The notes under the pieces: generated by a model
Told to the model about the DNA's origin: nothing
Seen by the model: the letters and a program-made list of their open reading frames with translations, nothing else
Databases searched by the model: none
In this document: positions 15,811-42,435 of the stretch, piece after piece
Position numbering within the stretch: the stretch's first letter is position 1
Layout of the letters: every line of letters starts with the position of its first letter
From: Acidobacteriota bacterium
Lineage (GTDB): Bacteria; Acidobacteriota; Terriglobia; Bryobacterales; Bryobacteraceae
Assembly: GCA_016871015.1 (NCBI GenBank)
Contig: VFZX01000013.1
Coordinates: 1-48,546 of the forward strand
Length of the DNA: 48,546 nucleotides
Direction of reading: 5' to 3'
Program-made: the position numbers and the translations under genes

Positions 15811-15952
15811 GGCCGGAGGATAGCATAGCCGTGTGGCGCCGGCATGAATCCTGGCACGAGGGAAACTCATCCGGACAGGAAAGCGATCGCATGGCGAAAA
15901 AGCGGCTGTTTATGCCGGGCCATTCGACCCGCCCACCCACGGGCACCTCCGG

Positions 15953-16603: not shown

Positions 16604-16629
16604 TATCGAGAACCAGGGTTGGGTCAGGG

Positions 16630-17184: not shown

Positions 17185-17200
17185 GAGTCCAAGGGGGGCC

Positions 17201-20200
17201 ATGCCGGTGCATACGAAGCAATTGTTCAGCGCGCTCCTGGTGAGCGCTTTGATGATGGGCCAGCAGAGCCTGTCGACGCTGCGCGGAACGGTCAAGGACA
17301 GCTCCGGAGCCGCGGCCGCCGGAGTCGAGATTACGATCACCGAAGTCGCAACCAGCATCCGGGTCCGCGTAACGAGGTCTGACGGCCAGGGCGATTTCGA
17401 AGTGCCCGGCCTCAAAGCGGGTGCGTATCAATTGCGGGCCTCGCAGCCTGGATTCAAGTCGTTCGTCGCTGACGATATCCGCCTTCTATCGAGCCAGGTC
17501 CGCCGCGTCGACGTCACACTCGAGCTCGGCGCCGTCGAGACGCAGGTAACGGTGAGTGAAAGGGCGGCGGCGATTGAGACCGAGCAGGGCAAGATTTCGG
17601 CCGAGTTCTCCGGCGCACGATACAAGGATGTTCCCATTCCCGGGAACCGCTTCGGCGGGACAGCCCCGGTGCTCGTGGTCCTGCCGCAGGTGCAAGGCGG
17701 TAGAAGCGGCGGTACGGGCATCACGTTCGCCGGCCAGAAGTCACCGCAACTCAACATGGGCATGGATGGTGTGAAGGAAGAGACGCTGAACACGCAGACG
17801 GTGAACATGGAGTTCGTCGAGGAGGTCCGGCTCGTGGCGGTGAACAATACGGCTGAGTTCAGCCGTATTGGCTACTTCGACACGGTGAGCAGACGCGGCA
17901 ACAATCAGTATCACGGCGAGGCGTCCTACTACCAGCAGAACTCGGCTCTCTACGCGCGCGGATTCTTCGAGAGACAGAAGACCTGGGACCTCTACCACAT
18001 CTTCAATATCGTGGGATCAGGCCCGATCATCAAGAACAAGACCTTCTTCTACGCAATCTGGAATGCCGAGCGCGTTCCTGGCAAAACCTTCCGCAACATG
18101 ACGGTTCCGACCGAGGCCATGCGCCGTGGCGACTTCTCTCAATTGCTCACGGTGACGCCCCAGGTTGCCGTCCGCGATCCGCTCAACGGGCAGCCCTTCG
18201 CTGGCAACATCATTCCCACGGCGCGGCTGAATGGGGTCTCGACGAAGGTGCGGGATCAGTTCATGCCGGGGCCCAACGTGGGAGACCCGAACCGGCTGGT
18301 GAACAACTTCGACTGGGTCCACCCGTATCCGAGCGATCAGTTCCGCGCCGACGTCGTCACAACGCGCATTGATCACCAACTTCGCAACGACAACTCGTTC
18401 TACGGACGGTTTTCCGCATACTTGCCCCGATACATCACGCCGGGCAACTATCCGGCGACCGCCACCAGCAGCCGTCGCCAAAGCCACTCGTGGGTGCTGG
18501 TGGACACGCACATCTTCTCGCCCACGATGATCAACACGTTCACCTTCGGTGGCAACCGCGACGGCCGCGACGTCGGCATCGAGATCAACGGTTTCCAGCC
18601 GCCGCAAGGCGCGAAAGTGGTTGCCGACCTCGGCCTGCAAGGGCTCAGCCCGAAGGTCCAGTCGTTTGGCGACAAGGGAAGCGGTTTCCCGATCATGAAC
18701 ATCACGGGTTACACGACGCTCACCACCGGGCACGGCGGCAGGCAGGATCCCTGGAGCTTCACCTTCGCGGACGCGGTCACGCGGTCCACCAACCGGCACG
18801 TGTTGAAGTTCGGCGGCGAACTCCGCACCTTCCTCGACTTCAACGGCCTGATCCCGGAGAGCACCTATGGGCGGTACACGTTCAACGGCTCGTTGGCCAA
18901 CAATGCGTATGCCGATTTCCTGCTCGGTCTGCCTTTCCAAAGCGAGCGCCTCGATCCGATCGTCGACCGCTACCGTACGTCGAAGGAACTGGGCCTGTTC
19001 GTTACCGACACGTTCAAGGTGAACAGCAAGCTCAACCTCGACATCGGCATTCGCTGGGACTACTTCACCGCCACCACCTTCCGGGATGGACTCATGCTCA
19101 ACTGGGATCCCGGTTCGGGGAACATCATCGTGCCCCAGGCAGTCCGCGACAAGATCAGCCGCAACTATCCCACCAACATCGGTATCGTGACCGGAGACGT
19201 TGTGCCCCGCCCGGACCGCAAGAACTTCGCGCCCCGGCTCGCCGCCGCCTACCGGTTCTCGGACAAGACCGTGTTCCGCGGCGGCTACGGCATTTACAAC
19301 GAGTTCTTCGGCCGCTTCGTCCGGGCTGAGGGTGGCGGCCCATTCCAGATCGGCGACACCTACTTCAATTCGGTCACCGGCGGCCAGGCGCTCTTCCAGT
19401 TCCCGAATCCGTATCCTGCAGGATCGGTGGCCTCCACCATTCCGTCGCAGAGCGCCAATGGCTATCCATCGCAGACCACCAACGGGTACATCCAGCAGTA
19501 CAACGCCACCATCGAGCAGCAGTGGCGCGATATTGGCGTGCGGCTCTCCTACATCGGATCGCGCAGCTCCGGTTTGAACTACAACCTTTCCCTCAACAAG
19601 CCGCAGCCGAGCCTGATCCCATTCACCGCGGCACGACGCCCGTATCCGCAATTCGTGAACCTGGCCTTTCCGCAGACCGATGGCCGCAACAAGTACCATT
19701 CGTTCACTCTCGAAGGGAAGCGGCGGACCGGCTGGGTCACGTTCGACGCCGTATGGACCTGGGCCAAGAGCATGTCGGACAACCTCAACCTCCAGGATCC
19801 CTACAGCCACGTCTTCTGGAACCGCGAGGACTCGATCCCCCGGCACCGGGTGGTGATCAACAGCCTGTTCGAGCTGCCTGTAGGCCGCGGCAAAAGCTTC
19901 GCCTCAAATATCCCAAAGGCCGCGGACTACGCCATCGGAGGCTGGAAGATCGCCTGGATCGCCTTCTTCCAAACCGGCCAGTTCTTCTCGCCAAGTTTCG
20001 CCGGCAGCGATCCGTCACGCACCAACACGGTGGGCGGACTCCCCGACCGTATCTGCAACGGCAACCTCCCGCCCGGTGAACGGAGAATCAGCCGGTGGTT
20101 CGACGGTTCCTGCTTCGCCGTCCCGCAGGCTGGACGCTTCGGCAACTCGGGCGTCAATATTCTCGAGGGTCCGGGGCTGCACAGCCACGCGGCGAGCATC

Positions 20201-28106: not shown

Positions 28107-29540
28107 CTACAGCTTCGGCCGTCGCCTGTGCCAATCGGTCCGGGTCTGGTATTCCAGACCGAAGCGGAGGAGTGTATTCTCGCCGAAGGGCCGGGACACC
28201 AACTGTACAGCCACGGGAAGTCCTTCCGCGAATCCGCACGGCAGGCACAGGGCCGGAAGTCCGGCCAGGTTGGCGGCGGGAATCAGACCCTGCAGCCCGC
28301 GGGCTCTGGGTTCGGCGTTGGCGCGAGGCCGCGGGGCATCCAGCGGTTCGGCGGCCTTGGGAGCTCCACCGTTGCGCGCCGGGGCAAGCAGCACATCCAC
28401 GGTCACGAAGATCTCCCGGAAGGCTTGCTGCACCAGGCTGCGAATTCTCATCGCCCGAAGGTAGTCGGCTGCGGGGATTTCAAGTCCGGCCTTTAACCCG
28501 GCGATCTGCTTTGCGTCAGCCAGCCGGTCCACTTGCCCGCTCCGGATCAGGGTTTCGAACGCGGCCGATCCTTCGGCTGAGATCACGGTTCCCGTGACGG
28601 CGGAGTAGGGGAGGTCCGGGAGCTCGGCTTCAACCACTTTCGCGCCGAGCTGCCGGAACGCCTCCAGCGCCTGCTGGAGCGCCGGTTGCGCTGCTGGCTC
28701 CGGGTAGTCATTCCAGTCGGCGGGCGAGTAGCCGATCACCATGTCGGCGAAAGGCCGCACGAACTGGGGAGCGAAGTAGAAGTTCTTGCCGGCCGAGGCC
28801 GGATCCTTGGAGTCCTTGCCCGCGATCGCCTGGAGCACGAGGCCGCAGTCCTCCGCCGAGCGGCACATGGGTCCGATCTTGTCCATGGTCCAGGAGAGCG
28901 CCATCGCGCCCGCACGGCTGACCAGACCGTAGGTGGGCCGGAGTCCGGTCACGTTGCAGAACGCGGACGGAGTGAGGATGGACCCCGAAGTCTCTGAGCC
29001 CAACGCGTAGGGCGCCAGCCCGGCCGCCACTGCCGCTCCGGATCCACTTGAAGAACCACCGGACCAGCGTGTGCGGTCCCACGGGTTCAGTCCGGGACCC
29101 TGAAGCGACGCCCCGGCGGACCGGTATCCGCCACCACCCGCCAGCTCGACCATCGATAGCTTGCCAGTCAGCACGGCGCCGGCCTTGGCGAGCCGGGTAA
29201 TTACGGCAGCATCGGTGTGGAATACCTGGGCGGCGAAGGGAGCGGCGCCCCACGTGGTCGGCTGGCCCGCGAAGCTCAACAGATCCTTGGCCGCGTACGG
29301 GACTCCCTGCAGCGGGCTGCGTTGGCGATCCTTTTTGAGATCGCCGTCCACCTCTTTCGACTTCCGGATCGCCTGCTCCCGCAGGGACAAGGCCAGGCAG
29401 TTGTAGCGCGGGCCCAGGCGCTCCAGGCGGTCACAAAAGGCGCGGGTCAGTTCCACGCATGAGAACTTCTTCTGCTTGAGCGCGGCATTGATCTCGCTGA
29501 TCGTCGCAAAGAAGACCGGATCGTCGGCAGAGATGGCCAT
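28107..29540 (-). CDS. Amidase signature family protein
   Basis: The 477-residue amidase carries the Ser-cisSer-Lys triad context: catalytic Lys85 in GVPYAAKD, the GGSSSGSG loop (161-168) and the nucleophile, probably Ser187, in GSETSGSILTP. It also has the conserved GLRPTYGLVSRAGAMALSWT segment. It lacks an obvious signal peptide. It is not part of a gatCAB operon, so a stand-alone amide hydrolase or a GatA-like paralogue is more likely than the tRNA amidotransferase. It follows a short protein gene by 6 bp. Confidence 0.92.
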   Translation of the reverse strand: MAISADDPVFFATISEINAALKQKKFSCVELTRAFCDRLERLGPRYNCLALSLREQAIRKSKEVDGDLKKDRQRSPLQGVPYAAKDLLSFAGQPTTWGAAPFAAQVFHTDAAVITRLAKAGAVLTGKLSMVELAGGGGYRSAGASLQGPGLNPWDRTRWSGGSSSGSGAAVAAGLAPYALGSETSGSILTPSAFCNVTGLRPTYGLVSRAGAMALSWTMDKIGPMCRSAEDCGLVLQAIAGKDSKDPASAGKNFYFAPQFVRPFADMVIGYSPADWNDYPEPAAQPALQQALEAFRQLGAKVVEAELPDLPYSAVTGTVISAEGSAAFETLIRSGQVDRLADAKQIAGLKAGLEIPAADYLRAMRIRSLVQQAFREIFVTVDVLLAPARNGGAPKAAEPLDAPRPRANAEPRARGLQGLIPAANLAGLPALCLPCGFAEGLPVAVQLVSRPFGENTLLRFGLEYQTRTDWHRRRPKL

Positions 29541-30310: not shown

Positions 30311-31426
30311 ATGCCCGAAAAAGCACGCTACATCATGATCGGCGGGTTCCTCGGCGCTGGTAAGACGACGGCGATCCTGCGGCTGGCTGATTTTCTGGCC
30401 GCTAAGGGCCAGCGCGTGGGTCTGATCACCAACGACCAGAGCGTCGGACTCGTTGATACCGCGATGCTCGCCTCGCACGGTTTTCCCGTCGAGGAGATCA
30501 CCGGAGGCTGCTTCTGCTGCCGGTTCCACTCGCTGACTGAGGCGGCGGACCGTCTGGCGGCGGACGAGACTCCGGAAGTGTTCATCGCCGAACCCGTGGG
30601 AAGCTGCACCGATCTGCGCGCTTCGGTCACCTACCCGCTCCGCGCCATGTACGGCGACCGGTTCGAAGTGGCGCCGCTCAGCGTCCTGGTGGATCCGGTG
30701 CGGGCGGCGCGCGTGCTCGGAATCGAGCCCGGGCGTTCGTTCACCGAAAAGGTCCTCTACGTCTACTCTAAGCAGCTCGAAGAGGCGGACCTCATCGTCA
30801 TCAACAAGACGGACCTGCTCGATGCGGGCCGCATCGATGCGTTGCGCGAGGCGCTCGCCACGCGCTACCGCCAGGCTGAAGTCCTGGTGATCTCGGCCCG
30901 GACCGGGCAGGGGCTCGAATCCTGGTTCGAGAGGATCCTCTCCTCGACCGCCGCATCCGCCGCGGCGATGGATCTCGACTACGAGATCTATGCCGAGGGC
31001 GAAGCGCTGCTCGGCTGGCTCAACACCTCGGTACGGCTCTCCTCGGCCCAGCCTTTCGACGGGAACAGCTTGGTTCAAGCGATCGGAGAGCGGATCCACG
31101 GGCGGCTGGCGCGGTTCGGATTCGAGGTGGCGCACCTGAAGATGGTCCTCACGCCTTCCGAGGAGGCTGGCGACCTGGCCGTGGCGAATCTGGTCCGCTC
31201 CGACGGAAGGCTGGAGTTCTCCCACACCCTGCGGGAGCCGCTGGATGCGGGCGAACTGCTGCTCAATCTCCGCGCCGAAGGGGATCCGGACACGCTGCGT
31301 GAGGAGGCGGCCGCGGCGGTCGAGTCGGCAGCCCAAAGCCTGGGCGGGGTGAGTGCTATGATCGAACATACGGAAAGCTTCCGTCCGGCAAAGCCCCAGC
31401 CTACCTACCGGCTGGCCGTTGGATGA
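30311..31426 (+). CDS. CobW/COG0523-type GTP-binding metallochaperone-like protein
   Basis: The 371-residue G3E GTPase has Walker A GGFLGAGKTT (11-20), the metal-binding CxCC motif in GGCFCC (C67, C69, C70), EPVGSC for switch/Walker B and the guanine-specificity motif NKTD. The C-terminal domain differs from typical ZnuA-linked COG0523 members and lacks a His-rich tail. Such GTPases deliver metals to target enzymes. Here the target may be an Fe-S or metal-dependent enzyme encoded next to it; that is inferred from position. A 21-bp gap separates it from the small cysteine protein, and the six genes from here on probably form an operon. Confidence 0.9.
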   Translation: MPEKARYIMIGGFLGAGKTTAILRLADFLAAKGQRVGLITNDQSVGLVDTAMLASHGFPVEEITGGCFCCRFHSLTEAADRLAADETPEVFIAEPVGSCTDLRASVTYPLRAMYGDRFEVAPLSVLVDPVRAARVLGIEPGRSFTEKVLYVYSKQLEEADLIVINKTDLLDAGRIDALREALATRYRQAEVLVISARTGQGLESWFERILSSTAASAAAMDLDYEIYAEGEALLGWLNTSVRLSSAQPFDGNSLVQAIGERIHGRLARFGFEVAHLKMVLTPSEEAGDLAVANLVRSDGRLEFSHTLREPLDAGELLLNLRAEGDPDTLREEAAAAVESAAQSLGGVSAMIEHTESFRPAKPQPTYRLAVG

Positions 31427-31447
31427 GAGCCCCTCAGGTGTTCTGGC

Positions 31448-31783
31448 ATGGCGCGTCAAAATCCCGGCATTCTGTACTGTTATTGCAAGTTTGCGCGCAT
31501 CATCCCGAATGAAGTAAAGACGGGGGTTTTGGAGCGGTTGGCGGGGTCGGATCTGGACTTTGACGCCGTGCCGGACCTGTGCGAAATGTCGGCGCGCAAG
31601 GATCCGCGCCTTGCCGAAGTCGCGCCAGGAAGCAAGGTCATCGCCTGCTACCCGCGCGCCGTGCAGGGACTGTTCCATTCGGCTGGACACCCGCTGCCCG
31701 CCGGAGTTGAGATCCTCAACATGCGGGCTGGGACCGCGGACGAGATCGTCCAGTCGATCCTGCCAGCGGGGGCGGCTGCATGA
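31448..31783 (+). CDS. Small four-cysteine protein resembling a short HdrA/MvhD-like segment
   Basis: The 111-residue protein contains four cysteines at C11 and C13 (ILYCYCKFA), C45 (DLCEMSARKDP) and C67 (VIACYPRAVQGLF). The spacing of CxC, LCE and ACxPR motifs recalls HdrA- and MvhD-type proteins that hold Fe-S clusters or pass electrons. The protein is much shorter than HdrA and has no flavin site. It overlaps the ferredoxin start by 4 bp. It may be a scaffold or electron-carrier partner of the ferredoxin or radical SAM protein; this is inference. Confidence 0.75.
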   Translation: MARQNPGILYCYCKFARIIPNEVKTGVLERLAGSDLDFDAVPDLCEMSARKDPRLAEVAPGSKVIACYPRAVQGLFHSAGHPLPAGVEILNMRAGTADEIVQSILPAGAAA

Positions 31784-32508
31784 CCGTCACAGCGCAAGGG
31801 AGTGTCCCGGCGGGCGTGATCGCTGCCCTGCTCGAAAAGGGATACCGGGTGGCGCGCGAAGCGGCTGCGGAGCCGTCCGTACGGGTCAATGGCAAGGCGT
31901 GGCCAGCGCCCCCCGGTGCCGGCGCGGCCGTCGCCGCCGAGGTGGACGCCTACGTCCGGGGCGACGCTCCGGTGCCCGCGGCGGCGTGGAAACCCTGGTT
32001 CCCCGTGATCGACTACAAGCGCTGCACCAATTGCATGCAGTGCCTCAGCTTTTGCCTGTTCGACGTCTACGGGGTGAGCGGCACGGGGCAGATCGAAGTA
32101 CGCAACCAGACCAACTGCAAGACCGATTGTCCGGCCTGTTCGCGCGTGTGTCCGGAAGTGGCCATCATGTTCCCGAAGTACCGCCATGGTCCGATCAATG
32201 GCGACGCCGTATCGGCGGACGACGTGCGGCGCGAAGCGATGAAGGTCGACATCTCGGCGCTGCTCGGCGGCGACATCTATTCGCTGTTGCGCGACCGTAG
32301 CGAGAAAGCCAAGTCCCGGTTCTCAAAGGAGCGCGACGACGAACGGGCTCTCAAGGAACGGCAGAATTGCCTCGTCACGATGGGCAAGGCGCTGGGAGTA
32401 CCGGCGGAAGTACTGGCATCGCTGCCCTCGGTGGAAGAGATCCAAGCCAAGGCCGAGGCAGCCCGGCAGCGCGCCGAGGAAGCGCGGAAACTAGCGGGGC
32501 AATCCTGA
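31780..32508 (+). CDS. Two-cluster 4Fe-4S ferredoxin-type protein with coiled-coil tail
   Basis: The 242-residue protein has the ferredoxin motif CTNCMQC (C82, C85, C88) with C92, and a second set C113, C117, C120, C124 followed by Pro, enough for two [4Fe-4S] clusters. The N-terminal 70 residues contain no recognised domain. The last 70 are charged and helical (about 170-242, ending EAARQRAEEARKL) and may form a coiled coil. It overlaps the preceding gene (ATGA) and lies 2 bp before the radical SAM gene, so it likely supplies electrons to that enzyme. Confidence 0.88.
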   Translation: MTVTAQGSVPAGVIAALLEKGYRVAREAAAEPSVRVNGKAWPAPPGAGAAVAAEVDAYVRGDAPVPAAAWKPWFPVIDYKRCTNCMQCLSFCLFDVYGVSGTGQIEVRNQTNCKTDCPACSRVCPEVAIMFPKYRHGPINGDAVSADDVRREAMKVDISALLGGDIYSLLRDRSEKAKSRFSKERDDERALKERQNCLVTMGKALGVPAEVLASLPSVEEIQAKAEAARQRAEEARKLAGQS

Positions 32509-32510
32509 CC

Positions 32511-33704
32511 ATGGTATTTTCGTTCGCCCGCCGGATGCTGACCGAACCCGATCCCCGGGTGCTCGCCAAGTTCGTCTACAACTTTGGCGTCAAAGGGATG
32601 CTCAGCGTCGAGCGGTTCAAGAAGCGGATCAAGAAGGGCGAGTACTTCCCGCCGTTCTTGTTCATTTCGGTCACCTCCGGCTGCCAGTTGCGCTGCCAGG
32701 GATGCTGGGTCGATGTTGACCGCCCGGCGCAGTCGCTCTCGCTCGAAGCCCTCAACAAACTGGTCAGCGACGCAAAAAAGCACGGCAACCACTTCTTCGG
32801 GATCCTCGGCGGCGAGCCATTCCTGCACCCGAAGCTGCTCGATCTGTTCGAAGCGCATCCGGACTGCTACTTTCAAGTCTTTACCAACGGACATCTGATC
32901 AACGATGCGCTGGCGGCACGGCTCCGCGAGCTCGGCAACGTGACTCCGCTGATCAGCGTCGAAGGGACTGAGCTGGTCAGCGACGAGCGGCGCGGGCGGC
33001 TGAAGGTTTTCTCGAAGAGTGTCGCTGGCATCGAGGCCTGCGCGCGCAACAAAATCATCTTCGGCGTGGCGACCAGTGTGTGCCAATCGAACATCGGCGA
33101 CCTGGTAACCGAATCCTGGGTCCGGCGTCTGATCGGCATGGGAGTTCACTATGTGTGGTTCCACACCTACCGCGTCGTGGGACCGAAGCCGAACGGACAG
33201 CTTGCGCTCCGGCCGGAGCAGGTGCTGGCGGTCCGCCGGTTTATCGTCGAGACCCGGAAGAAGCTGCCCATCGCGATTGTCGACGCCTACTGGGACGACA
33301 AGGGTGAAGCGCTTTGCCCGATGGCGACCGGCGTGAGCCACCACATCAGTCCGTACGGCGACATCGAGCCGTGCCCCATCATCCAGTTCGCGCGTGAGTC
33401 CATCCACGATCGTGATAGCATTTACGAGATCATGACCCAGTCCGGGTACTTGCGCGATTTCCGTGAGGCGTCCGCCGGGGCGACGCGCGGCTGCGTCGTG
33501 CTCGAGCGTCCGGACCTGGTGAAGGAACTGGTCACGCGGCATGGCGCGCGCGACACCACGCAGAGAGGAACGGCGCTGGCCGAGCTCGACGCGATGGTCC
33601 CGCGCCACAGCCAATACAACCCGGACAACCCGATTCCCGAGGAACACTGGGCCTACCGGTTCGCGAAAAAGCACTGGTTCTTCGGATTTGGAGCCTACAC
33701 GTAA
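32511..33704 (+). CDS. Radical SAM enzyme with Twitch/SPASM-like C-terminus
   Basis: The 397-residue protein has the radical SAM cluster motif SGCQLRCQGCW (C58, C62, C65), the GGEPFLHP SAM-contact region and FTNGHLIND. A later pair of cysteines (ALCPMATGVSHHISPYG, then DIEPCPII) resembles an auxiliary-cluster (Twitch or SPASM) domain. No substrate can be read. The product of this class would be a C-H-activation step on a peptide, lipid or small molecule. I set the start at ATG 32511, 2 bp after the ferredoxin stop. The stop TAA overlaps the next ATG by one base (TAATG), so translation is coupled. Confidence 0.92.
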   Translation: MVFSFARRMLTEPDPRVLAKFVYNFGVKGMLSVERFKKRIKKGEYFPPFLFISVTSGCQLRCQGCWVDVDRPAQSLSLEALNKLVSDAKKHGNHFFGILGGEPFLHPKLLDLFEAHPDCYFQVFTNGHLINDALAARLRELGNVTPLISVEGTELVSDERRGRLKVFSKSVAGIEACARNKIIFGVATSVCQSNIGDLVTESWVRRLIGMGVHYVWFHTYRVVGPKPNGQLALRPEQVLAVRRFIVETRKKLPIAIVDAYWDDKGEALCPMATGVSHHISPYGDIEPCPIIQFARESIHDRDSIYEIMTQSGYLRDFREASAGATRGCVVLERPDLVKELVTRHGARDTTQRGTALAELDAMVPRHSQYNPDNPIPEEHWAYRFAKKHWFFGFGAYT

Positions 33705-35434
33705 TGCTGGTCCCCATTCAGTCGGTGCCGCGCACGTTCGCGCAGATCAAGTGGCGCCAGCCGCAAGAGAATATCCCCGCCTTGCGTGCGGACCGGGAGA
33801 ATCTGAAGCGGTTCATCGCAGGCTACGTGGAGCGCAACCGGCACGCGCTGACTCCGCCGCTGGTGCTCGACGAGTTGCGGCAGCACGCCGAGGTGGTGGT
33901 GCGCGAGTTCGGGATCGAGGGGAAGTTCACCGATTATGCCGGGGTCCTGCTGAACAATGAAGTGTGGCGCGAGCATCTCGCCACGGTTCCGTTTGACAGG
34001 CGCCTGTTGCTGCTCCCCAAATGCCTGCGGATTGAGGACAAGTGTCCTGCGCCGTTCGACGAGTTTGGACTTCTGTGCAAGCAGTGCGGACTGTGCACCA
34101 TCCAGGACCTTCAAGAAGAAGCCGAGCGCATGGGTTACGCCTGCCTGGTGGCCGAAGGTTCGGCTCTCGTGATGGCGATGATCCAGACCGGCAAGATCGA
34201 AGCGATTGTGGGCGTGAGCTGCCTATCGGTGCTGGAGAAGGCCTTCCCGTTCATGGAAGCCGCGGCGATCCCTGGCGTAGCGATTCCCCTGAACCAGGAC
34301 GACTGCAAGGACACCACCGTTGACATCGAGTGGGTGTGGGACATCCTGCACCTGACCAGCGAGGACCGGACGCGCCGGATGGATTTGGACGCGGTCCGGC
34401 GGCAAACAGACTCCTGGTTCCGTCCTGAGGCGCTTGACGAGATCTTCGGCGCGCCGGCAGAGAACGAGACCGAGCGGATCGGACGCGAGTGGCTGTCCCG
34501 TGCGGGCAAGCGCTGGCGGCCGTTCCTGACGGTGTGCGCCTGGCAGGCGCTGCAGGACGACCCCAACGCGAAACCGCCGGAAGGATTGCGGAAGGTGGCG
34601 GTGGCGGTCGAGTGCTTCCACAAGGCGTCGCTAATCCACGACGATATCGAGGACAACGACCCGGATCGCTACGGCGAGAGCACGATGCACGTGTCCCAAG
34701 GGTTGCCGGTGGCGCTGAATGTGGGCGATCTGCTGGTGGGCGAAGGCTACCGGCTGCTGGCGGAGTCCGGCGCACCGGCGCACGTGGTTGGCAAGCTCAT
34801 TTCGGTGGCCGCGGCGGGACATCGCGCGCTGTGTTTGGGCCAGGGTGACGAGTTGTGCTGGGCGCGGGACCGGCGTCCGCTGTCGGCGCTGCAGGTGCTC
34901 GAGATTTTCCGCCGCAAGACGGCGCCCGCGTTCGAAGTGGCGTTGCGGCTGGGCGCCGCGTTCGCCGAAGCCCCGGACTACATGGACCGGCTGCTGGCGC
35001 GGTGCTCCGAGAATCTGGGAATCGCGTATCAAATCCGCGACGACCTCGACGATTTCTTCGAGCAAGGCGATTCCGATGACGTGCGGGCGATGCGTCCTTC
35101 GGTCCTGCTGGGAATTGCGGGGGACCGGGCCAAGGGTGCGGAGAAAGGACTGCTGGACCGGGCTTGGCGCGACGGAATGGCGGATGAAGCCACGGCGGCG
35201 CAAGTCCGGGAGGTGGTGGCCGCATTAAAGGCTGATGAGCGGGCGCGCCAGTTGCTCGAGGCGTACAAGGAGCAGGCGGTCCGGACACTGACAGAATTCG
35301 ATCACGCTAGTATGAAGGGGCTGCTGCGCCGGGTCATCGGAAAAATCTTCAGCATCGAGATCCAGGGATGGTGCAGTGAGTTTGAGGCTCGAAATGCTGC
35401 AAGTGGCGCGGTTGGCGCCACGGCAGCTCAGTGA
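33704..35434 (+). CDS. DUF116-polyprenyl synthase fusion protein
   Basis: The 576-residue protein joins two domains. Residues about 95-205 form a DUF116 region with LLLLPKCLR, C114, the CKQCGLC motif (C125, C128, C131), EGSALVM and AIVGVSCLSVLEK, a cysteine set that could bind an Fe-S cluster. Residues about 260-550 are a trans-isoprenyl diphosphate synthase: GKRWRPFL, the first Asp-rich motif IHDDIEDND (DDIED, 313-317) and the second RDDLDDF (DDLDD, 446-450). Both Asp motifs are intact, so it should condense isopentenyl and allylic diphosphates. The fusion is unusual to me. It is coupled to the radical SAM gene by TAATG. The C-terminus overlaps the next gene by 59 bp. Confidence 0.9.
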   Translation: MLVPIQSVPRTFAQIKWRQPQENIPALRADRENLKRFIAGYVERNRHALTPPLVLDELRQHAEVVVREFGIEGKFTDYAGVLLNNEVWREHLATVPFDRRLLLLPKCLRIEDKCPAPFDEFGLLCKQCGLCTIQDLQEEAERMGYACLVAEGSALVMAMIQTGKIEAIVGVSCLSVLEKAFPFMEAAAIPGVAIPLNQDDCKDTTVDIEWVWDILHLTSEDRTRRMDLDAVRRQTDSWFRPEALDEIFGAPAENETERIGREWLSRAGKRWRPFLTVCAWQALQDDPNAKPPEGLRKVAVAVECFHKASLIHDDIEDNDPDRYGESTMHVSQGLPVALNVGDLLVGEGYRLLAESGAPAHVVGKLISVAAAGHRALCLGQGDELCWARDRRPLSALQVLEIFRRKTAPAFEVALRLGAAFAEAPDYMDRLLARCSENLGIAYQIRDDLDDFFEQGDSDDVRAMRPSVLLGIAGDRAKGAEKGLLDRAWRDGMADEATAAQVREVVAALKADERARQLLEAYKEQAVRTLTEFDHASMKGLLRRVIGKIFSIEIQGWCSEFEARNAASGAVGATAAQ

Positions 35435-36200
35435 CGCGGCGGACCTTGTCGAGCAGTTCATCCGGGGACAGCAGCATCCATCGGGTGGATTTTGCGATCG
35501 CGCCGGGCAAGCAGACCTCTACTACACGGTTTTCGGAATCGAGTGCCTGATTGCGCTCGGGAAGTCTCCGCCGGACTGCACGGACTATCTGCGCGGGTTC
35601 GGTGACGGTGGCGGACTCGACTTCGTGCATCAGTGTTGCCTGGCGCGCTGCTGGGCTGATCTGGGCGGTGTTGCTCCTGAAGGTCTCGCGGAGAGGATCC
35701 ATCCCGGGCAGCAGGACACGGCCTATTGGCTGATGCTCGGCTACGGCGCCCGGCAGGATCTGAACCGGCCGCTACCACCGGCTGAAACGCTGCTCGGACG
35801 GCTTGAACTCCTGCGGTCCGATGATGGCGCATATGGCAACTGGCCGGACATGGAACAGGGACAGACGAGCGCCACGGCCGCCGCCGTCACGCTCCAGCGG
35901 CAGTTGGGCCAGGCGCAGGATCCAGCCTTGGGCGAATGGCTGATGCAGCAGTGGAATCCGCAGGGCGGTTTCGCCGCCGCGCCTGGCGTACCGGTGCCGG
36001 ATCTGCTGTCGACGGCGACCGCCCTGCACGCGCTGTCCGGGCTTCAGGTTCCGCTGAACGCAATCCGCGAACCGGCTCTCGATTTTGTCGATTCGCTGTG
36101 GACCAACCGGGGCGGGTTCTTCGGAAGCTGGGCCGACGATGCGATCGACTGCGAATATACGTACTACGCGCTGCTCGCGTTAGGGCACCTGAGTCTGTAA
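35376..36200 (+). CDS. Prenyltransferase-beta/squalene-cyclase-like alpha/alpha-toroid protein
   Basis: The 274-residue protein (GTG 35376; ATG 35394 is a close alternative) consists of repeats of the prenyltransferase/squalene-cyclase type: GGFCDRAGQADLYYT (37-51), DGAYGNWPD, GGFAAAPG with DLLSTATALHAL, and GGFFGSW with DCEYTYYALLALG. The first block resembles the GGxxxKxGxxxDxYHT block of protein farnesyltransferase beta subunits, with Tyr in place of the zinc-binding His. The length fits one toroid rather than a two-domain cyclase. It is the last gene of the cluster and overlaps the fusion gene, so it probably acts on the prenyl product or on a prenylated partner. The reaction is unknown. 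Confidence 0.85.
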   Translation: MSLRLEMLQVARLAPRQLSDAADLVEQFIRGQQHPSGGFCDRAGQADLYYTVFGIECLIALGKSPPDCTDYLRGFGDGGGLDFVHQCCLARCWADLGGVAPEGLAERIHPGQQDTAYWLMLGYGARQDLNRPLPPAETLLGRLELLRSDDGAYGNWPDMEQGQTSATAAAVTLQRQLGQAQDPALGEWLMQQWNPQGGFAAAPGVPVPDLLSTATALHALSGLQVPLNAIREPALDFVDSLWTNRGGFFGSWADDAIDCEYTYYALLALGHLSL

Positions 36201-36522: not shown

Positions 36523-36622
36523 GAATCCAGTGTAGCGGGGTTTGTCAATACCCCTCCCGGGGAAACGGGCTATACCGGCGGCTCCATCTCGATCGCTGCC
36601 GACATGTGCTAAAACAAGGCCC

Positions 36623-38986
36623 ATGCGGACCATCGTCCTCCTCGCCGGCGTGAGTCTCCTTTCCGCCGAGTACCAACACGCGCCGGAAGCGATCCGCCGG
36701 ATCCTGGACGCTCCCGGTCCGCCGGAAGTCAGCATCAGCCCGGCCAAGACGCATCTGCTCATCCTTGAGCCCGACGGCTATCCGTCGATCGCAGTCATCT
36801 CGCAACCGATGCTCCGCCTTGCCGGACACCGGATCAACCCGCGCACCAACGGACCCCATCAGCCGCCGCGCTTCCGCCGGCTCACCCTCGCCGCACTCGA
36901 TTCCACGCAGCGCACCGGTTTCACCCTCCCGCCAGGAGCCGGCATCGGACAGCCCGTTTGGAACGGCCGCGGCGACCGGTTCGCACTCGCCGTCACCCTG
37001 CCGGACCGCGTCGAATTGTGGACCGGATCCGTCGCTCCTGCCGCCTTGAGCCCATTTCCCGGTCTGCGCTTGAACACCGCGCTCGATCCCGGCGAGGCCA
37101 TCCGGTGGAACGCGGAGGGCAACGGACTCTTTGTCACCACCGTGCCCGCCAGCCGGAAGGCCCCGCCCGGCACGCCACACGTTCCCAACGGGCCCAACAT
37201 CCAGGAATCGAAGGGCCGCGCGTCCGACACCTGGACCTTTCAGGACATGCTGGGCAGCGCCCACGACGAATCGCTCTTCGACTACTACTGCACGTCGCAA
37301 CTGACGTATGCCGACCTGAGCACCCGCCAAGCCCGCACCGTTGGCTCGCCGGCCATCTTCCGCGAAATCAGCGCCGCGCCCGGCGGCAAGCACCTGCTGG
37401 TGACGCGCATCCAGCGGCCCTACTCGTGGCTCTACCCGGCATCGTACTTTCCCACGTCGTCCGAAGTCTGGACCTCCACCGGCGTCATGGTGCGGAACAT
37501 CGCCATCCAGCCCCTGGCGGACAACGTTTCGGCGGACGGGGTGCGGACCGGTCCGCGCGACATGGCGTGGAAACCGACCGATCCCGCCACGCTCACCTGG
37601 GTGGAAGCGCTCGATGGCGGAAATCCGAAAGAGAAGGTCCCGCACCGGGACCGGCTGATGGTGTCCGCCGCGCCGTTCGATCAACCCCAGGAGATCCACC
37701 GGATCGAGCACCGGTTCACCACGGTCACCTACGGGCGGCAGTCGATGATCGTCGGCGAGAGCGACCGCGACCGCCGCTGGGTGCGGAGGTTTCTCGTCCG
37801 GGCGGGCTCCTCACCCAAGGTCCTTGACGACCGCAGCTCGCGCGACCGTTACGGCGATCCCGGGCGCGTGCTGACCGAAGCGTTGGCCAGTGGCCACCGT
37901 GTGCTGATGGAGGACGGCGAGTGGATTCTGCTTGAAGGCAGCGGCGCGGGTCCGGCTGGCAACCGTCCGTTCCTGGACCGTCTCAACACCGCCACAATGG
38001 CCAAAGAGCGCGTCTTCCAAAGCGAGCCTGGCAGCGAGGAAGAGGTACTCTCGGTGCTGGCACGCGACGGATCGCGTTTGATCACGCGCAGGCAGTCGGC
38101 AACAGAGCCGCCGAATCTCTACCTGTGGGAGCGGGGCCAGCGGCGCGCATTGACCTCGTTCAAGGATCCCGCGCCTGAGTTCCGCGCCGTCACGAAGCGC
38201 CTGGTGACCTACAAGCGCGCGGACGGAGTTCCGCTGTCGTTCACGCTGTTCCTCCCGCCGGGCTACAAGGAAGGAACCAGGCTGCCGGCGGTGATGTGGG
38301 CCTATCCGCTGGAGTTCAACGATCCGGCCACGGCGGGACAAGTGACCACCACCGCGAACCGCTTCACGCTGCCGCGCGGACCATCTCACCTGTGGCTGCT
38401 GCTCCACGGATACGCGATCCTGGACGACGCCTCGCTTCCGGTGGTCGGCGATTTGAAGACTGGAAACAACACCTATATCGAGCAGATCACCGCGGGCGCC
38501 AAGGCGGCGATCGATGAGGCGGCCCGGCTCGGCGTGGTGGATCCGGATCGCGTGGGCGTAGGCGGCCACAGCTACGGCGGATTCATGACGGCAAACCTGC
38601 TCGCCCACACCGATCTGTTCCGGGCCGGCGTCGCACGCTCTGGCGCCTACAACCGGACCCTGACCCCGTTCGGGTTCCAGGGCGAGCGGCGGACGTTCTG
38701 GCAGGCGCCCGAGATTTACACGAAGATGTCGCCGTTCGTGCACGCCAACAAGATCAACGAACCGGTGCTGCTGATCCACGGAATGGCGGACAACAACTCG
38801 GGAACGTACCCGATCCAGTCCGAGCGTCTCTACCAGGCGATCCGCGGGAATGGAGGCCGGGCGCGGCTGGTGATGCTCCCGCACGAGTCACATGGCTACG
38901 CCGCGCGGGAGTCCATCGAGCACGTGGTGGCCGAGACGGTCCGCTGGTTTGACCAGCACGTCAAGAACGCCCCGGCTCTGCGCTAA
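36623..38986 (+). CDS. Secreted S9 family prolyl oligopeptidase-like peptidase
   Basis: The 787-residue serine peptidase begins at ATG 36623 with a short signal peptide (ending near SLLSAEY). The beta-propeller occupies about 30-530. The alpha/beta-hydrolase domain carries the catalytic triad Ser650 in GGHSYGGF, Asp723 in HGMADNNS and His757 in HESHGY. It resembles glutamyl endopeptidase/S9D-type enzymes (AEYQHAPEAIRRILDAPGPP at the start, LIxHGMAD near the end). It should cleave peptides in the periplasm or outside the cell. It is convergent with the fourth TonB receptor gene (4-bp overlap of stops). Confidence 0.92.
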   Translation: MRTIVLLAGVSLLSAEYQHAPEAIRRILDAPGPPEVSISPAKTHLLILEPDGYPSIAVISQPMLRLAGHRINPRTNGPHQPPRFRRLTLAALDSTQRTGFTLPPGAGIGQPVWNGRGDRFALAVTLPDRVELWTGSVAPAALSPFPGLRLNTALDPGEAIRWNAEGNGLFVTTVPASRKAPPGTPHVPNGPNIQESKGRASDTWTFQDMLGSAHDESLFDYYCTSQLTYADLSTRQARTVGSPAIFREISAAPGGKHLLVTRIQRPYSWLYPASYFPTSSEVWTSTGVMVRNIAIQPLADNVSADGVRTGPRDMAWKPTDPATLTWVEALDGGNPKEKVPHRDRLMVSAAPFDQPQEIHRIEHRFTTVTYGRQSMIVGESDRDRRWVRRFLVRAGSSPKVLDDRSSRDRYGDPGRVLTEALASGHRVLMEDGEWILLEGSGAGPAGNRPFLDRLNTATMAKERVFQSEPGSEEEVLSVLARDGSRLITRRQSATEPPNLYLWERGQRRALTSFKDPAPEFRAVTKRLVTYKRADGVPLSFTLFLPPGYKEGTRLPAVMWAYPLEFNDPATAGQVTTTANRFTLPRGPSHLWLLLHGYAILDDASLPVVGDLKTGNNTYIEQITAGAKAAIDEAARLGVVDPDRVGVGGHSYGGFMTANLLAHTDLFRAGVARSGAYNRTLTPFGFQGERRTFWQAPEIYTKMSPFVHANKINEPVLLIHGMADNNSGTYPIQSERLYQAIRGNGGRARLVMLPHESHGYAARESIEHVVAETVRWFDQHVKNAPALR

Positions 38987-41900
38987 AAGTGGAACTTCAG
39001 ACCGAACTGCAACTGCCGCGAGTCGATTTTCGTTCCCCCGATCCGGCCATAGGCAGGCGTGTTCGGCGTGGTACCCGGAGGCGCGAAGATCGGGTGATTC
39101 GGGATATTGAAGAACTCTCCACGGAACTCGAGATTCGTCTTCTCGGTAAGCCGGAAATTCTTGATCGCCGAGAAGTCAAAGCTGATGATCCCAGGACCGT
39201 CCAGGATGTTGCGGCCTGAGTCGCCGTAACGCGCTTCGGTGTTCGGACCGGGGATGCGGCCGGTGAGTGGGAATGCGGCGGTGTTGAAGAACCGGTCCGG
39301 TGTCTTCTGATTGCGCGGAAGGTTGGGATTGATGCCCAGCGAGTCTGACCGGCATCCGTCGCCGCCGTTCTGAATATTGCCGGGCGGGCAGAAGACTGAC
39401 AGCGGGAAGCCGGATTGCAGCGTGAAGATTCCGCCCAGTTGCCAGCCGCCGAGGATCACATTGCCGGCTCCGCCCGCGTTCAGGAACCTCTTTCCCTTGC
39501 CGAACGGCAGCTCGTACAGCCACGAGGTGGTGAGCCGCTGGCGGAAGTCGTAGGCCGACCGGCCGCGCTCGCGGAACAGGCCGTAGGGATCCATGGGCGT
39601 GAGCGGATCGCCGTCCGTGGTGCGGATGCCGCTGCCCGCGTCAATCGACTTCGAATAAGCATAGGAGCCCAGCACCGTGAGTCCGTTGGCGAATCTGCGT
39701 TGGAGCCGCGCCTGGAGCGCATGGTAGGTGGAGTGCGCCATCGCGTTCATCGTCTGGAATTGTCCGAACTTGGTGAATGGACGCCGCTGATTCACGTTGC
39801 CGGCGGCGAACGGCGCCGGACCCGGAATGTTGTAGTTGATCAGCCGCCGCAGCTTGACGCCCGACGAGCCCATGTAGGTGACTTCGAGGGAGGTTTCCGC
39901 GGCCAGCTCCCGCTGCAACCCGAACGACCACTGCGGAATGTAGGTGCTCCGCTCGCCGTACTGGTTGATCAGCAGGAACGTTGGATTGCCGGTGATCGTG
40001 AACGGCCGCGCCCAGGACTGGTTGGGCCGCACGGTGTCGGCGGGTTCATTGCGGCGGATCGTGAACGGGGCGTTGCGCACGATGTCGAACACCGCGTTGC
40101 CGATGTCGCGGACGAAGTACACGCCCGCGCCGGTCCGCAGCACGGTCTTCGAGTTGAGCTGGTAGGCGATCCCCAGGCGTGGCGCGATGTCGTTCTTGTC
40201 GGGCATGTAGGCGCCGCGCCCGAAGCGGCCATCGCGCACGTACTTGACGTCCGCCGCCCAGGGGAACGGCGGATTGCCTTCGTAGGGGTCGCCCGTGCCG
40301 CCGCGCACGAAGGTCGGCTCCACTGAATTGTCCCAGCGGAAATCGACGTTGACCAAGGCGTCGTGTTTGTCGGAATAGGGCTGATCGTACTCCCAGCGGA
40401 TTCCCAGGTTGATGGTCAACTTCGGCGTGGCGCGCCAAGTGTCCTGCAGGTACAGCGCGAAATAGCTCGACCGGAAATTCGCGATCGGCGCGCCCACCTG
40501 GCCCTCCGAGTTCGACTGGAACCCGAGCAGGAAGTCGGCCAGCGGCAGTCCGCTCGCGTTGGCGCGATTCGGCAGGTCCGACGGGCCTTGCGTGAATCGC
40601 CCATCCCAGGTGAACCGGCCGCGCGGTACCACCGCGCCGATCTGGTTGAATCGCACGCGCCGGGCTTCGCCGCCGAACTTGATGGCGTGCTTGCCACGGG
40701 TCCATGCGAAATCGTCCTTGCCTTGAATGATCGTGTCGTAGTTGACGAACGGGCAGTCGTTGCACTCGCCGACGTTGGAGAACGTGCTGATCTGGAACAC
40801 CGGAATGCCCCAGTACAAGGGGAAGTCGCGCGAAACATCCGGGATGTTCAACTCCTGGACGACATTGCGTTGGAAGGCGCGCTGCTGGATGTTGGCGGCC
40901 TTCAGGTAGCTGATGCCGATGCGCGCGTCGTTGACCTTGTTTCCACCGTAGACGCGGGTGTTGGCAACCACGAACTGCCAGGGGTCGACGTCGGCGTTGT
41001 TACCCTGGTCCGGGATACTGATGGGCAGGTACTGGCGCTCGTTGGCAAAGCTGTAGCGGGCAAACCAGTTCGAGTTGGGCGACTCGATGAAGTCGCTCCG
41101 GAAGCTGAACAGGTCGCTGTTGGTGCGGCGGCCTTCGTTGTTGAGGAAGTTGTTGTTTTGGACCGTCTGGCTGATGTTGGGCAGGGGGTAGAAATCGGCC
41201 AGCACCTTCGCGGAGTTGGCATGAATCCGGTTGGTCGGGATCCGGTTTCCGGCGAAGGGCGTCGCGGTGGTGACGGCGTTGCCGGTGAAGGCCCGGCTCA
41301 GCGGATCGTACAGCACGCGGTTGGTGATCGCCGAAAAGTCGCCGCCTCGCTGCGCCGCGAAGGGCACCGTGGCTGTTTGGGTCAGCGCGCGCCGCTCGCG
41401 CAGTCCTTCGTAGTTGGCGAAGAAGAACAGCTTGTTGCGCCCGTCGAACGCCTTGGGGATGTAGACCGGGCCGCCCACGGTAAATCCGAACTGGTTCCGC
41501 TTGAACGGCGGCTTGGACTGGTCGGCGCGGTCAAAGAAGTTCTTGGCGTCGAGCTTGGCGTTGCGCAGGAACTCGAACGCGGTTCCGTGCAACTCGTTGG
41601 TTCCGCCTTTGGTCGACACGTTAACCTGCGCAATGGCCCGGCCATATTCGGCCTGGAACAGTCCGGCTTCGACCTTGAACTCCTGCAGCGCCTCAAGCGA
41701 AGGCAGCAACAGGTAGGTGTTGAAGTTCGGATCCGTGTTCTCGATCCCGTCGAGCGAGTAATGATTGAAGTGAACACGCTGGCCCGCGATGTTCAACGCG
41801 AACTGGTTGCGTGAGCCGCCCATCCGCTGCTGGCCCTGCGATGAAGCCGGTCCGTTGGTGGTGGCGCCCGGAATCAGCGAGGCGAGTTGGAGGTAATTGC

Positions 41901-42330
41901 GTCCGTTCAGCGGCAGCTCCAGGATCCGCTTGTTCTCGATGACCGTGCCGATTTCCGTCGAATCGGTCTGCAGCACGGGCGCGCCGCCGGTCACCTCGAC
42001 CACCTCGGACACGTTGCCGACCCTCAACTGAAAATCGAGACGCGCCGTCTGCCCCACCTGCAACTCGACGCCGTTCCGCGTCTGGGTCTGGAATCCCTGC
42101 TGCTCGATCTTAATGTTGTAGATGCCCGGTTGGAGCGACGGCGCCGTATAGATTCCCGCGTCGTTGGTCTGAACCGTGCGTTGGAAATTCGTCGCCGGAT
42201 TCGTGATCACAACCGTGGCGCCGCTGACAACGGCTCCCGAAGCGTCAGTGACTGATCCGGAAATTTCGCCGGTCGGTGCCTGGGCGAATAGAGAGAGAAC
42301 TGCAAAGATCGGCGTAATCGCTTTACGCAT
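38983..42330 (-). CDS. Oar-like TonB-dependent receptor with carboxypeptidase-regulatory domain
   Basis: A 1115-residue receptor. I chose ATG 42330 because a GGGGGG ribosome-binding site precedes it and MRKAITPIFAVLSLFAQA is a typical signal peptide; an upstream ATG at 42351 is possible. Carboxypeptidase-regulatory domain: ISGSVTDASGAVVSGATVVI, GIYTAPSLQPGIYNIKIE. Plug: ILELPLNGRNYLQLASLIPG and HYSLDGIENTDPNF. The barrel ends in LQFGLKFHF. It is the most canonical of the four receptors here. It is divergent from the molybdenum oxidoreductase operon, and its ligand is unknown. Confidence 0.93.
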   Translation of the reverse strand: MRKAITPIFAVLSLFAQAPTGEISGSVTDASGAVVSGATVVITNPATNFQRTVQTNDAGIYTAPSLQPGIYNIKIEQQGFQTQTRNGVELQVGQTARLDFQLRVGNVSEVVEVTGGAPVLQTDSTEIGTVIENKRILELPLNGRNYLQLASLIPGATTNGPASSQGQQRMGGSRNQFALNIAGQRVHFNHYSLDGIENTDPNFNTYLLLPSLEALQEFKVEAGLFQAEYGRAIAQVNVSTKGGTNELHGTAFEFLRNAKLDAKNFFDRADQSKPPFKRNQFGFTVGGPVYIPKAFDGRNKLFFFANYEGLRERRALTQTATVPFAAQRGGDFSAITNRVLYDPLSRAFTGNAVTTATPFAGNRIPTNRIHANSAKVLADFYPLPNISQTVQNNNFLNNEGRRTNSDLFSFRSDFIESPNSNWFARYSFANERQYLPISIPDQGNNADVDPWQFVVANTRVYGGNKVNDARIGISYLKAANIQQRAFQRNVVQELNIPDVSRDFPLYWGIPVFQISTFSNVGECNDCPFVNYDTIIQGKDDFAWTRGKHAIKFGGEARRVRFNQIGAVVPRGRFTWDGRFTQGPSDLPNRANASGLPLADFLLGFQSNSEGQVGAPIANFRSSYFALYLQDTWRATPKLTINLGIRWEYDQPYSDKHDALVNVDFRWDNSVEPTFVRGGTGDPYEGNPPFPWAADVKYVRDGRFGRGAYMPDKNDIAPRLGIAYQLNSKTVLRTGAGVYFVRDIGNAVFDIVRNAPFTIRRNEPADTVRPNQSWARPFTITGNPTFLLINQYGERSTYIPQWSFGLQRELAAETSLEVTYMGSSGVKLRRLINYNIPGPAPFAAGNVNQRRPFTKFGQFQTMNAMAHSTYHALQARLQRRFANGLTVLGSYAYSKSIDAGSGIRTTDGDPLTPMDPYGLFRERGRSAYDFRQRLTTSWLYELPFGKGKRFLNAGGAGNVILGGWQLGGIFTLQSGFPLSVFCPPGNIQNGGDGCRSDSLGINPNLPRNQKTPDRFFNTAAFPLTGRIPGPNTEARYGDSGRNILDGPGIISFDFSAIKNFRLTEKTNLEFRGEFFNIPNHPIFAPPGTTPNTPAYGRIGGTKIDSRQLQFGLKFHF

Positions 42331-42435
42331 TGAACCCCCCAAAAGTGGCAAATCCGCGAGAGAAGCGGTTCAGATCAGGATACCGCATCCCCGTACAGAG
42401 AGCGCCATACCCGGCCTTCAGCTAAACTAGCGTCG

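Follow-up and report, generated by a model that had tools for sequence, protein, structure and literature searches.

In hopanoid-type clusters a prenyl synthase is combined with a class II cyclase, and a polyprenyl transferase is known as a cargo of Family-2 encapsulins (NF041169). A GcvH-like lipoyl carrier together with iron-sulfur (Fe-S) proteins, and in some loci a gene of the lipoate-ligase family, features in the part cited here of an account of sHdr sulfur oxidation with LbpA (PMC6067878); radical S-adenosylmethionine (SAM) chemistry close to a lipoyl carrier and to a protein of the ligase family features in the part cited here of an account of sLpl(AB)-LipS1/LipS2 lipoate assembly (PMC10332631). 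A 2015 comparative study described, in the section concerned, Psta_0175 of Pirellula staleyi as a fusion of DUF116 with a polyprenyl synthetase and predicted that DUF116 acts in electron transfer and has a flavodoxin-like fold (PMC5898192). The same domain fusion is encoded in a six-gene cassette at positions 30311-36200 of the stretch analyzed here (the window: 48,546 nucleotides of an Acidobacteriota bacterium, family Bryobacteraceae, assembly GCA_016871015.1, contig VFZX01000013.1), which belongs to contig 13 of a genome of 8.66 Mb (G000). The cassette is most likely the core of a terpenoid pathway whose genes, up to ten in number, lie at four places in this genome. Open reading frame (ORF) calls gave the six genes with the coordinates and spacings originally predicted, and the following features were identified:

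30311-31426, + strand: GTPase of the CobW/COG0523 type, a metal-chaperone family, with a GGCFCCR motif (Pfam cobW, 87 bits)
31448-31783, + strand: small four-Cys protein of 111 residues (C11, C13, C45, C67), outside any Pfam or NCBIfam family
31780-32508, + strand: ferredoxin with two 4Fe-4S motifs, a long N-terminal extension and a conserved helical C-terminus (Pfam Fer4 models just below cut-off)
32511-33704, + strand: radical SAM enzyme (Pfam Radical_SAM PF04055, 58.7 bits over a cut-off of 29.5)
32682-32705, + strand: CX3CX2C (C58, C62, C65), the SAM-binding cluster motif of that enzyme, in 31/31 covering rows
33704-35434, + strand: DUF116-polyprenyl diphosphate synthase fusion (Pfam DUF116 126.3 bits, cut-off 25; polyprenyl_synt 130.5, cut-off 27)
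33887-34345, + strand: DUF116 domain (Pfam PF01976) with seven invariant Cys, kept in 38/38 rows
34637-34654, + strand: HDDIED, the first Asp-rich motif of the synthase, in 38/38 rows
35376-35434, + strand: out-of-frame 59-nt overlap between the synthase stop and the GTG start of the toroid gene, exactly 59 nt in 31/37 junctions
35376-36200, + strand: small alpha-alpha toroid protein of one barrel, with the prenyltransferase/squalene-cyclase fold (Pfam Prenyltrans, 46.7 bits)

The gaps between the six ORFs are, in order, 21, -4, +2, -1 and -59 bp, the last being measured from the conserved GTG start of the toroid gene. Like hopanoid-type clusters, the cassette with the further genes described below has the Asp motifs of a synthase and a toroid cyclase with a DxDD motif; unlike them it adds radical SAM, DUF116, GTPase, ferredoxin, carrier, desulfurase and ligase-like genes, and its cyclase (the copy of locus L048) falls far below the equivalog cut-off of the hopanoid route. 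No Hdr subunit is among its ten families, which include isoprenoid enzymes instead, and among the seven of 34 candidates scored in G000 no HdrA was found at E<=1e-50. The differences from the sLpl(AB)-LipS1/LipS2 system are a single radical SAM gene, a ligase-like protein which consists of the catalytic domain only, and the presence of isoprenoid enzymes. NF041169 is the best NCBIfam match of the synthase domain, but the domain scores below its cut-off (122 against 450 bits) and is fused to DUF116. The section on Psta_0175 covers the fusion and does not describe the surrounding gene set, a carrier or a cyclase. In open-access full-text literature (subscription journals and preprints lying outside this scope) a mention of the fusion was found and a description of the cluster was not; the fusion stressed in the original prediction was already in print. 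Most of the parts are members of known families or resemble them, and the synthase and DxDD cyclase make this a terpenoid cluster by kind; as far as was found, the carrier/radical arm is without precedent in the literature searched.

Lack of a conserved gene order in any relative had been named beforehand as a refutation of the operon; the order proved to be conserved. A full-length fusion was found in five of 41 genomes (the window's own and relatives), and the other four have all six genes in the same order and on the same strand. A scan of about 85,000 species, one genome per species, with two short patterns yielded 39 loci, including those four (L026, L030, L040 and L059). All six genes were present in 29 loci, 28 of which keep order and strand; the exception is L058, where the radical SAM gene lies elsewhere, and this gene is outside the ferredoxin-fusion interval in L057 as well. 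Ten loci are without at least one gene: in L037, L046, L052, L056, L057 and L063 the contig begins or ends within the cluster, in L044, L047 and L060 there are 0.6-2.7 kb upstream with no radical SAM match, and L042 has no toroid match. The fusion match covers both domains in 38 of the 39, L063 ending inside the fusion. By label, 24 loci are from Acidobacteriota, ten from Planctomycetota, three from Verrucomicrobiota/Lentisphaeria and one each from "Acidimicrobiia" and "Bacteroidales". In a tree of the fusion (37 of the 39 loci and the window) these labels group by phylum imperfectly, with at least two changes on starred branches for Acidobacteriota and four for Planctomycetota, and the window's nearest rows are Acidobacteriota; such a pattern would fit descent with some transfer, or misbinned contigs. 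Of 396 Acidobacteriota genomes, ten carry a radical SAM gene of the cassette type (E<=1e-106; next match 3e-58), and the same ten have fused DUF116 (search hits; L083-L091 inspected). The ratio of nonsynonymous to synonymous substitution rates was 0.05-0.44 in three close pairs and 0.08-0.18 in a fourth, distant pair where the synonymous rate was computable, which at the level of sequence shows purifying selection on the gene set in the tested pairs. No relative in viral contigs matched the six patterns used, and plasmids gave only one distant radical SAM gene (28% identity).

Gene calling on 40 loci (the 39 and the window) revealed four further recurrent genes, so that the six-gene set, although real and conserved, proved to be incomplete: a carrier, a DxDD cyclase, a desulfurase and a lipoate-ligase-like gene are invisible from the window. 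The GcvH-like lipoyl carrier gene (family F5) is found in 30/40 loci; of the 32 loci with the GTPase just two are without it, namely the window and L026, which share a genus. A squalene-hopene-cyclase-like gene of about 600 residues (F6) lies directly 3' of the toroid gene in 29 of the 37 loci with a toroid. A cysteine desulfurase gene (F7) is present in 26/40, always in the arrangement F7-F5-GTPase, and a lipoate-ligase-like gene (F8), on the opposite strand, in 16/40. The lipoyl lysine of the carrier, Lys79, is conserved in 30/30 rows, and the L048 carrier scores 73.7 bits against the GcvH NCBIfam cut-off of 115.9 and is thus, by model, not the GcvH of glycine cleavage. The desulfurase has its pyridoxal phosphate lysine (K200) and active cysteine (C324) in 26/26 rows, as expected of a cysteine desulfurase; the best model for the L048 copy is DndA, with a score (457.9) under the cut-off (480) that speaks against DndA itself. 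Lys146 of the ligase-like protein is kept in 16/16 rows.

All four genes are present in G000, on three other contigs, none of them adjoining the cassette: the cyclase gene on C329 (62% identity), the carrier gene on C6 (58%), and the desulfurase gene next to the ligase-like gene on C98 (65% for the desulfurase; 46% over most of the ligase). In the congener G002 the cyclase gene remains next to the cluster, and the desulfurase and carrier genes, and the ligase-like gene, are on other contigs. The G+C content of the three G000 contigs is 0.63-0.65 against 0.64 for the window, and their tetranucleotide correlation with the window is 0.967-0.984, as compared with 0.975 for a window piece against the rest and 0.969 for a G002 contig; the three contigs may nevertheless come from a close relative binned into G000. 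A carrier search in the 396 Acidobacteriota genomes gave 11 at E<=1e-37 (next best 1.5e-21): the cassette-type carrier is in 10/10 cassette genomes and in 1/386 others (Fisher p 5e-19, uncorrected for relatedness and linkage). That one, G277, has an incomplete cluster in an 18-kb region (L119, contig C9) with a cyclase gene, the four-Cys gene, the GTPase, the carrier and a desulfurase split into two ORFs; ferredoxin, fusion, toroid and radical SAM genes are absent from this region, and the genome is without DUF116 or a close radical SAM match. Another genome of the window's genus, G001 (77% complete), has no fusion and has a ligase-like gene. On the contig of that gene (C200; L109:7616-7720) 35 codons resemble the 3' end of the cassette cyclase, perhaps the relic of a lost cluster.

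Since only two short patterns had been used, most Planctomycetota were missed in the species-wide scan. In a separate survey the fusion was found in 64 of 294 sampled Planctomycetota genomes (E<=1e-60), about a fifth. Identity is 50-61% in roughly one half of them and 34-46% in the other, and several copies of the lower-identity half are in single large contigs. Twenty of the 64 neighborhoods (up to 19 kb), ten per identity group, hand-picked to span both, were examined. Cyclase genes were found in 18, carrier, ferredoxin and toroid genes in 16 each, and radical SAM and GTPase genes in 13 each, in varied order; therefore the link between the genes outlives rearrangement. In the nearer group all ten loci have fusion and toroid, nine each have carrier, GTPase, four-Cys and ferredoxin genes (L191 ends near the fusion), and cyclase (8), radical SAM (8) and desulfurase (6) genes are variably placed. 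The diverged group has cyclase genes in all ten, carrier and ferredoxin genes in seven each, and the GTPase gene in four. Families present in at least four of the 20 loci were the cluster's own and sigma-factor-like, type II secretion-type prepilin-like and kinase-like genes, as read from translations. The motif DADDT occurs in 17/17 planctomycete cyclases called, the lipoyl lysine in 9/9 carriers aligned (six from the diverged group), and the seven DUF116 cysteines and HDDI(E/Q)D in 9/9 diverged fusions, with NDLxD as the second Asp motif. Fusion, cyclase, carrier and ferredoxin would thus form the traveling core, with radical SAM, toroid and GTPase genes common and desulfurase and ligase genes optional.

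Two enzymes point to a cyclized isoprenoid. The synthase domain has HDDIED and the second DDxxD in 38/38 rows and GKRWRP in 37/38, and can be classed as a trans-polyprenyl diphosphate synthase (residue counts throughout omit rows with in-frame stops or less than 70% coverage: L063 and L064 for the fusion; 24 rows kept for the ferredoxin). The residues before the first Asp motif are the small Ala308/Ser309 in 38/38 rows; the size of these residues is taken here as a rule for product chain length. The cyclase has its DxDD in 31/31 rows, aligned, in the L048 copy, with the DxDD of squalene-hopene cyclase (1gsz). Two loci hold more genes beyond this one. In L026 a second cyclase-like gene (16776-18713) lies 3.5 kb past the cassette cyclase; L064 has three more genes past its cyclase (14797-18066), none in a family common to three loci, one of which encodes a flavin adenine dinucleotide-dependent oxidoreductase of the geranylgeranyl-reductase/halogenase type (read from the translation), and these could possibly be tailoring genes.

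DUF116 is a Pfam family of unknown function which occurs in methanogens too. Its seven conserved residues are C107, C114, C125, C128, C131, C173 and C201, and stand-alone DUF116 genes in two Acidobacteriota genomes (L113, from 5137; L114, from 5562) are followed, as read from translations, by genes for an Nfu-like protein of 72 residues and a 2-oxoacid:ferredoxin oxidoreductase; the invariant cysteines together with these neighbors suggest an Fe-S role for the domain.

The radical SAM protein belongs to its superfamily by the CX3CX2C motif and the core profile. The original prediction saw a C-terminus like that of auxiliary-cluster enzymes; the extra cysteines C177, C191, C269, C288 and C328 are kept in 34/34 rows. 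The SPASM signature consists of C-x9-15-G-x4-C and further Cys ligands; C269-x13-G-x4-C288 is the first half of such a motif, the other SPASM cysteines were not seen, and there was no SPASM model among the Pfam hits. C269, C288 and C328 suggest that three Cys hold an auxiliary cluster, leaving a site open. In two Acidobacteriota genomes a radical SAM gene of 40% identity stands first in the operon (L120, L121) and is followed by genes for a divergent desulfurase, the carrier, the GTPase, the four-Cys protein, the ferredoxin, the fusion, the toroid and the cyclase; the L121 fusion is without about 70 synthase residues. By eye, the genes next to the five closest radical SAM genes outside the cassette gave no clue to function.

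The conserved motifs also upheld the prediction of an operon in which Fe-S proteins and a CxCC GTPase accompany an intact prenyl diphosphate synthase: eight ligand cysteines and C197 of the ferredoxin are kept in 24/24 rows, C67, C69 and C70 of the GTPase in 32/32, and all four cysteines of the four-Cys protein in 32 sequences. The latter has a predicted Rossmann-like fold (predicted local distance difference test, pLDDT, 83.6). Because it forms a single 305-residue ORF with the ferredoxin in L026, the two proteins may work together. In the diverged planctomycete loci L197 and L199-L203 the ferredoxin ORF starts with about 120 residues which resemble the four-Cys domain by eye (GW-YPRA--WIL against ACYPRAV-WLF) and are without its cysteines; BLAST to the four-Cys domain gave no match. 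The spacing of the four-Cys motif (CxC...LC...AC-P...N-R) resembles, again by eye, the N-terminal domain of HdrA, a likeness which failed the profile tests and stays no more than a lead. The hhalign scores were 18.9 with one HdrA and 17.0 with six, and 60 shuffles of the columns reached as much as 19.2; Foldseek gave no HdrA among the best 50 matches listed; and HdrA chains in VIA-align (Z 4.7-5.6, root-mean-square deviation 3.8-4.5, 99-105 residues aligned) were tied with unrelated Rossmann folds. A profile search in 12 genomes, run without a positive control, gave no match.

Based on these genes, the following route is proposed. The fusion would make a trans-prenyl diphosphate, probably C20 or longer because of the small residues before its first Asp motif, and the DxDD cyclase would close rings by protonation, with the small toroid holding or passing the hydrophobic intermediate; the overlap of the toroid and synthase genes points to coupled translation and probably to a synthase-toroid complex. 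The GcvH-like carrier would bear lipoate and present a thiol or persulfide, which in loci with a cysteine desulfurase gene would draw its sulfur from that enzyme. The C-terminal cluster of the radical SAM enzyme, seemingly with three Cys ligands, would bind the sulfur at its open site, and the enzyme would couple this sulfur with a carbon radical of the isoprenoid. The ferredoxin, the four-Cys protein and the DUF116 domain would supply electrons or clusters, and the GTPase would deliver a metal. A cyclized terpenoid with sulfur as a thiol or thioether is the expected product.

The gene set, its conservation, the intact catalytic motifs and the linked lipoyl-carrier gene are read directly from the sequences; on them a cyclized isoprenoid is a well-supported inference, and the entry of sulfur through carrier and radical SAM enzyme a weaker one. 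That the genes form a conserved functional pathway is close to certain, and a terpenoid is its very probable product. Sulfur in that product is doubtful, and was judged a little less so before the ten most diverged copies were found to have no desulfurase beside them. The chain as a whole, from carrier sulfur through the radical SAM step to a ring-closed terpenoid, is unlikely to hold in every link.

Several observations weigh against this route. All 39 scan records are metagenome-assembled genomes, and in L047 the fusion stands alone, with no other cluster gene on a 5.3-kb contig. The radical SAM gene is in just five of the ten diverged planctomycete loci, and no desulfurase, ligase or separate four-Cys gene was found in these ten (E<=1e-4); all 16 loci with the ligase-like gene are Acidobacteriota by label, and it was found in no other phylum's loci. 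The G374 fusion is missing about 70 synthase residues between the two Asp motifs. No convincing sequence match was obtained for DUF116 among solved proteins, nor did its model (pLDDT 72) have a PDB match at E<=0.001 by Foldseek. Among solved proteins the radical SAM enzyme comes nearest to cytosylglucuronate decarboxylase (two entries) and, in third rank, to SkfB, a thioether-forming enzyme; the SkfB match speaks for the route, but neither reaction is implied because the matches span the common core only. The failed HdrA likeness of the four-Cys protein counts here too, and desulfurase and carrier could serve cluster repair, not product sulfur.

This last thought leads to the alternative that survives best, a cyclic terpenoid free of sulfur, in which the radical SAM enzyme makes a C-C bond, a desaturation or a decarboxylation, and the carrier and, in loci that have them, the desulfurase and ligase just rebuild Fe-S clusters or serve the many Fe-S proteins as a dithiol relay of electrons. 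It is tentative, and because of the planctomycete survey it is now placed slightly above the sulfur-bearing chain, having stood slightly below it before. Five of the six window proteins have conserved Cys motifs, the diverged planctomycete fusions have no desulfurase beside them, stand-alone DUF116 adjoins Nfu-like and oxidoreductase genes, and Nfu and H protein are known partners of lipoyl synthase; the electron-transfer role predicted for DUF116 in the section cited also agrees with it (PMC5898192). On the other hand, a dedicated lipoyl carrier which stays with the fusion across phyla exceeds the usual need for cluster repair, and G000 keeps the cassette desulfurase in spite of additional desulfurase-like genes.

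An isoprenoid tethered to the carrier is improbable. Here the toroid would couple the prenyl group to the lipoyl arm as a thioether, cyclase and radical SAM enzyme would process it in place, and the product would be released or remain as a protein-bound cofactor. The conserved lipoyl lysine is consistent with this, as are the prenyl-to-thiol transferases among the best solved matches of the toroid (RabGGTase beta, 2.8e-8), which stand next to squalene-cyclase C-terminal proteins. So is the overlap with the synthase gene, in which the toroid GTG start lies 59 nt within that gene, out of frame, in Acidobacteriota, Planctomycetota and "Acidimicrobiia". The overlap is 47 nt in L051, 56 in L057 and 4 in L064, where the synthase frame looks broken, and there is none in L044, L046 and L058, where the toroid start is still MSxxLEMLQVA-like. 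The zinc ligands and the survey argue the other way. The ligands of RabGGTase beta are D238, C240 and H290; at the aligned positions the toroid keeps the Asp (D209, 36/36) and has Tyr50 for His (37/37) and Leu211 for Cys (36/36), the Cys position being located by ungapped extension of the alignment, and no toroid match was found in four of the ten diverged loci. With two of three ligands replaced, the toroid was not filed as a protein prenyltransferase, and the original assignment as a beta subunit found no support. In its D-x-x-x-T motifs at D47, D209 and D258 the Asp never varies, and T is found in most rows.

Less probable still is a variant of a known hopanoid, quinone or carotenoid pathway. 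A squalene-hopene-cyclase-like gene does accompany the fusion in 29/40 and in 18/20 loci, but the L048 cyclase scores 95 bits against the cut-off of 431 for TIGR01507, which places it outside the squalene-hopene cyclase equivalog, and the window radical SAM protein scores 32 against 225 for HpnH; a match to a characterized pathway, named beforehand as a refutation, was not seen in the genes of the cluster (no search for known pathway genes elsewhere in the genome was made). G000 also holds a second, distant cyclase-like gene (33%), and the nature of the other families in at least three loci (PQQ-type dehydrogenase, ABC ATPase, Fe-type alcohol dehydrogenase, DUF1501, outer-membrane barrel, PSD1/PSCyt2, Uma2 and a metallo-beta-lactamase-fold protein; one representative each) does not favor such a variant. 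That unrelated genes merely travel together, or mature some metalloprotein, is very improbable: CobW GTPases usually serve metalloenzymes and the cassette is patchy (10/396 Acidobacteriota), but order is kept across phyla, the overlap is exactly conserved, and genes are retained after separation or reordering.

Around the cassette, as read from translations, an amidase-like gene (28107-29540, - strand) lies upstream, in the place which carrier and desulfurase genes occupy in many other loci. On the 3' side are genes for a prolyl-oligopeptidase-like peptidase (36542-38986, + strand) and a large TonB-dependent, carboxypeptidase-regulatory-like outer-membrane protein (38983-42351, - strand).

Retention of the cluster across phyla, with an overlap exact to the base or with members kept in a reshuffled order, indicates that it must be valuable to its hosts. 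It links three fields which seldom meet, namely lipoyl carriers, radical SAM chemistry and terpene cyclization. A compact locus with its ten genes is small enough for one construct, so a direct search for the product is possible. If the sulfur-terpenoid reading is true, this would be an undescribed natural-product route and the first pathway role for DUF116; the cluster is a lead to a new natural product and to new enzyme chemistry in soil and water bacteria of several phyla.

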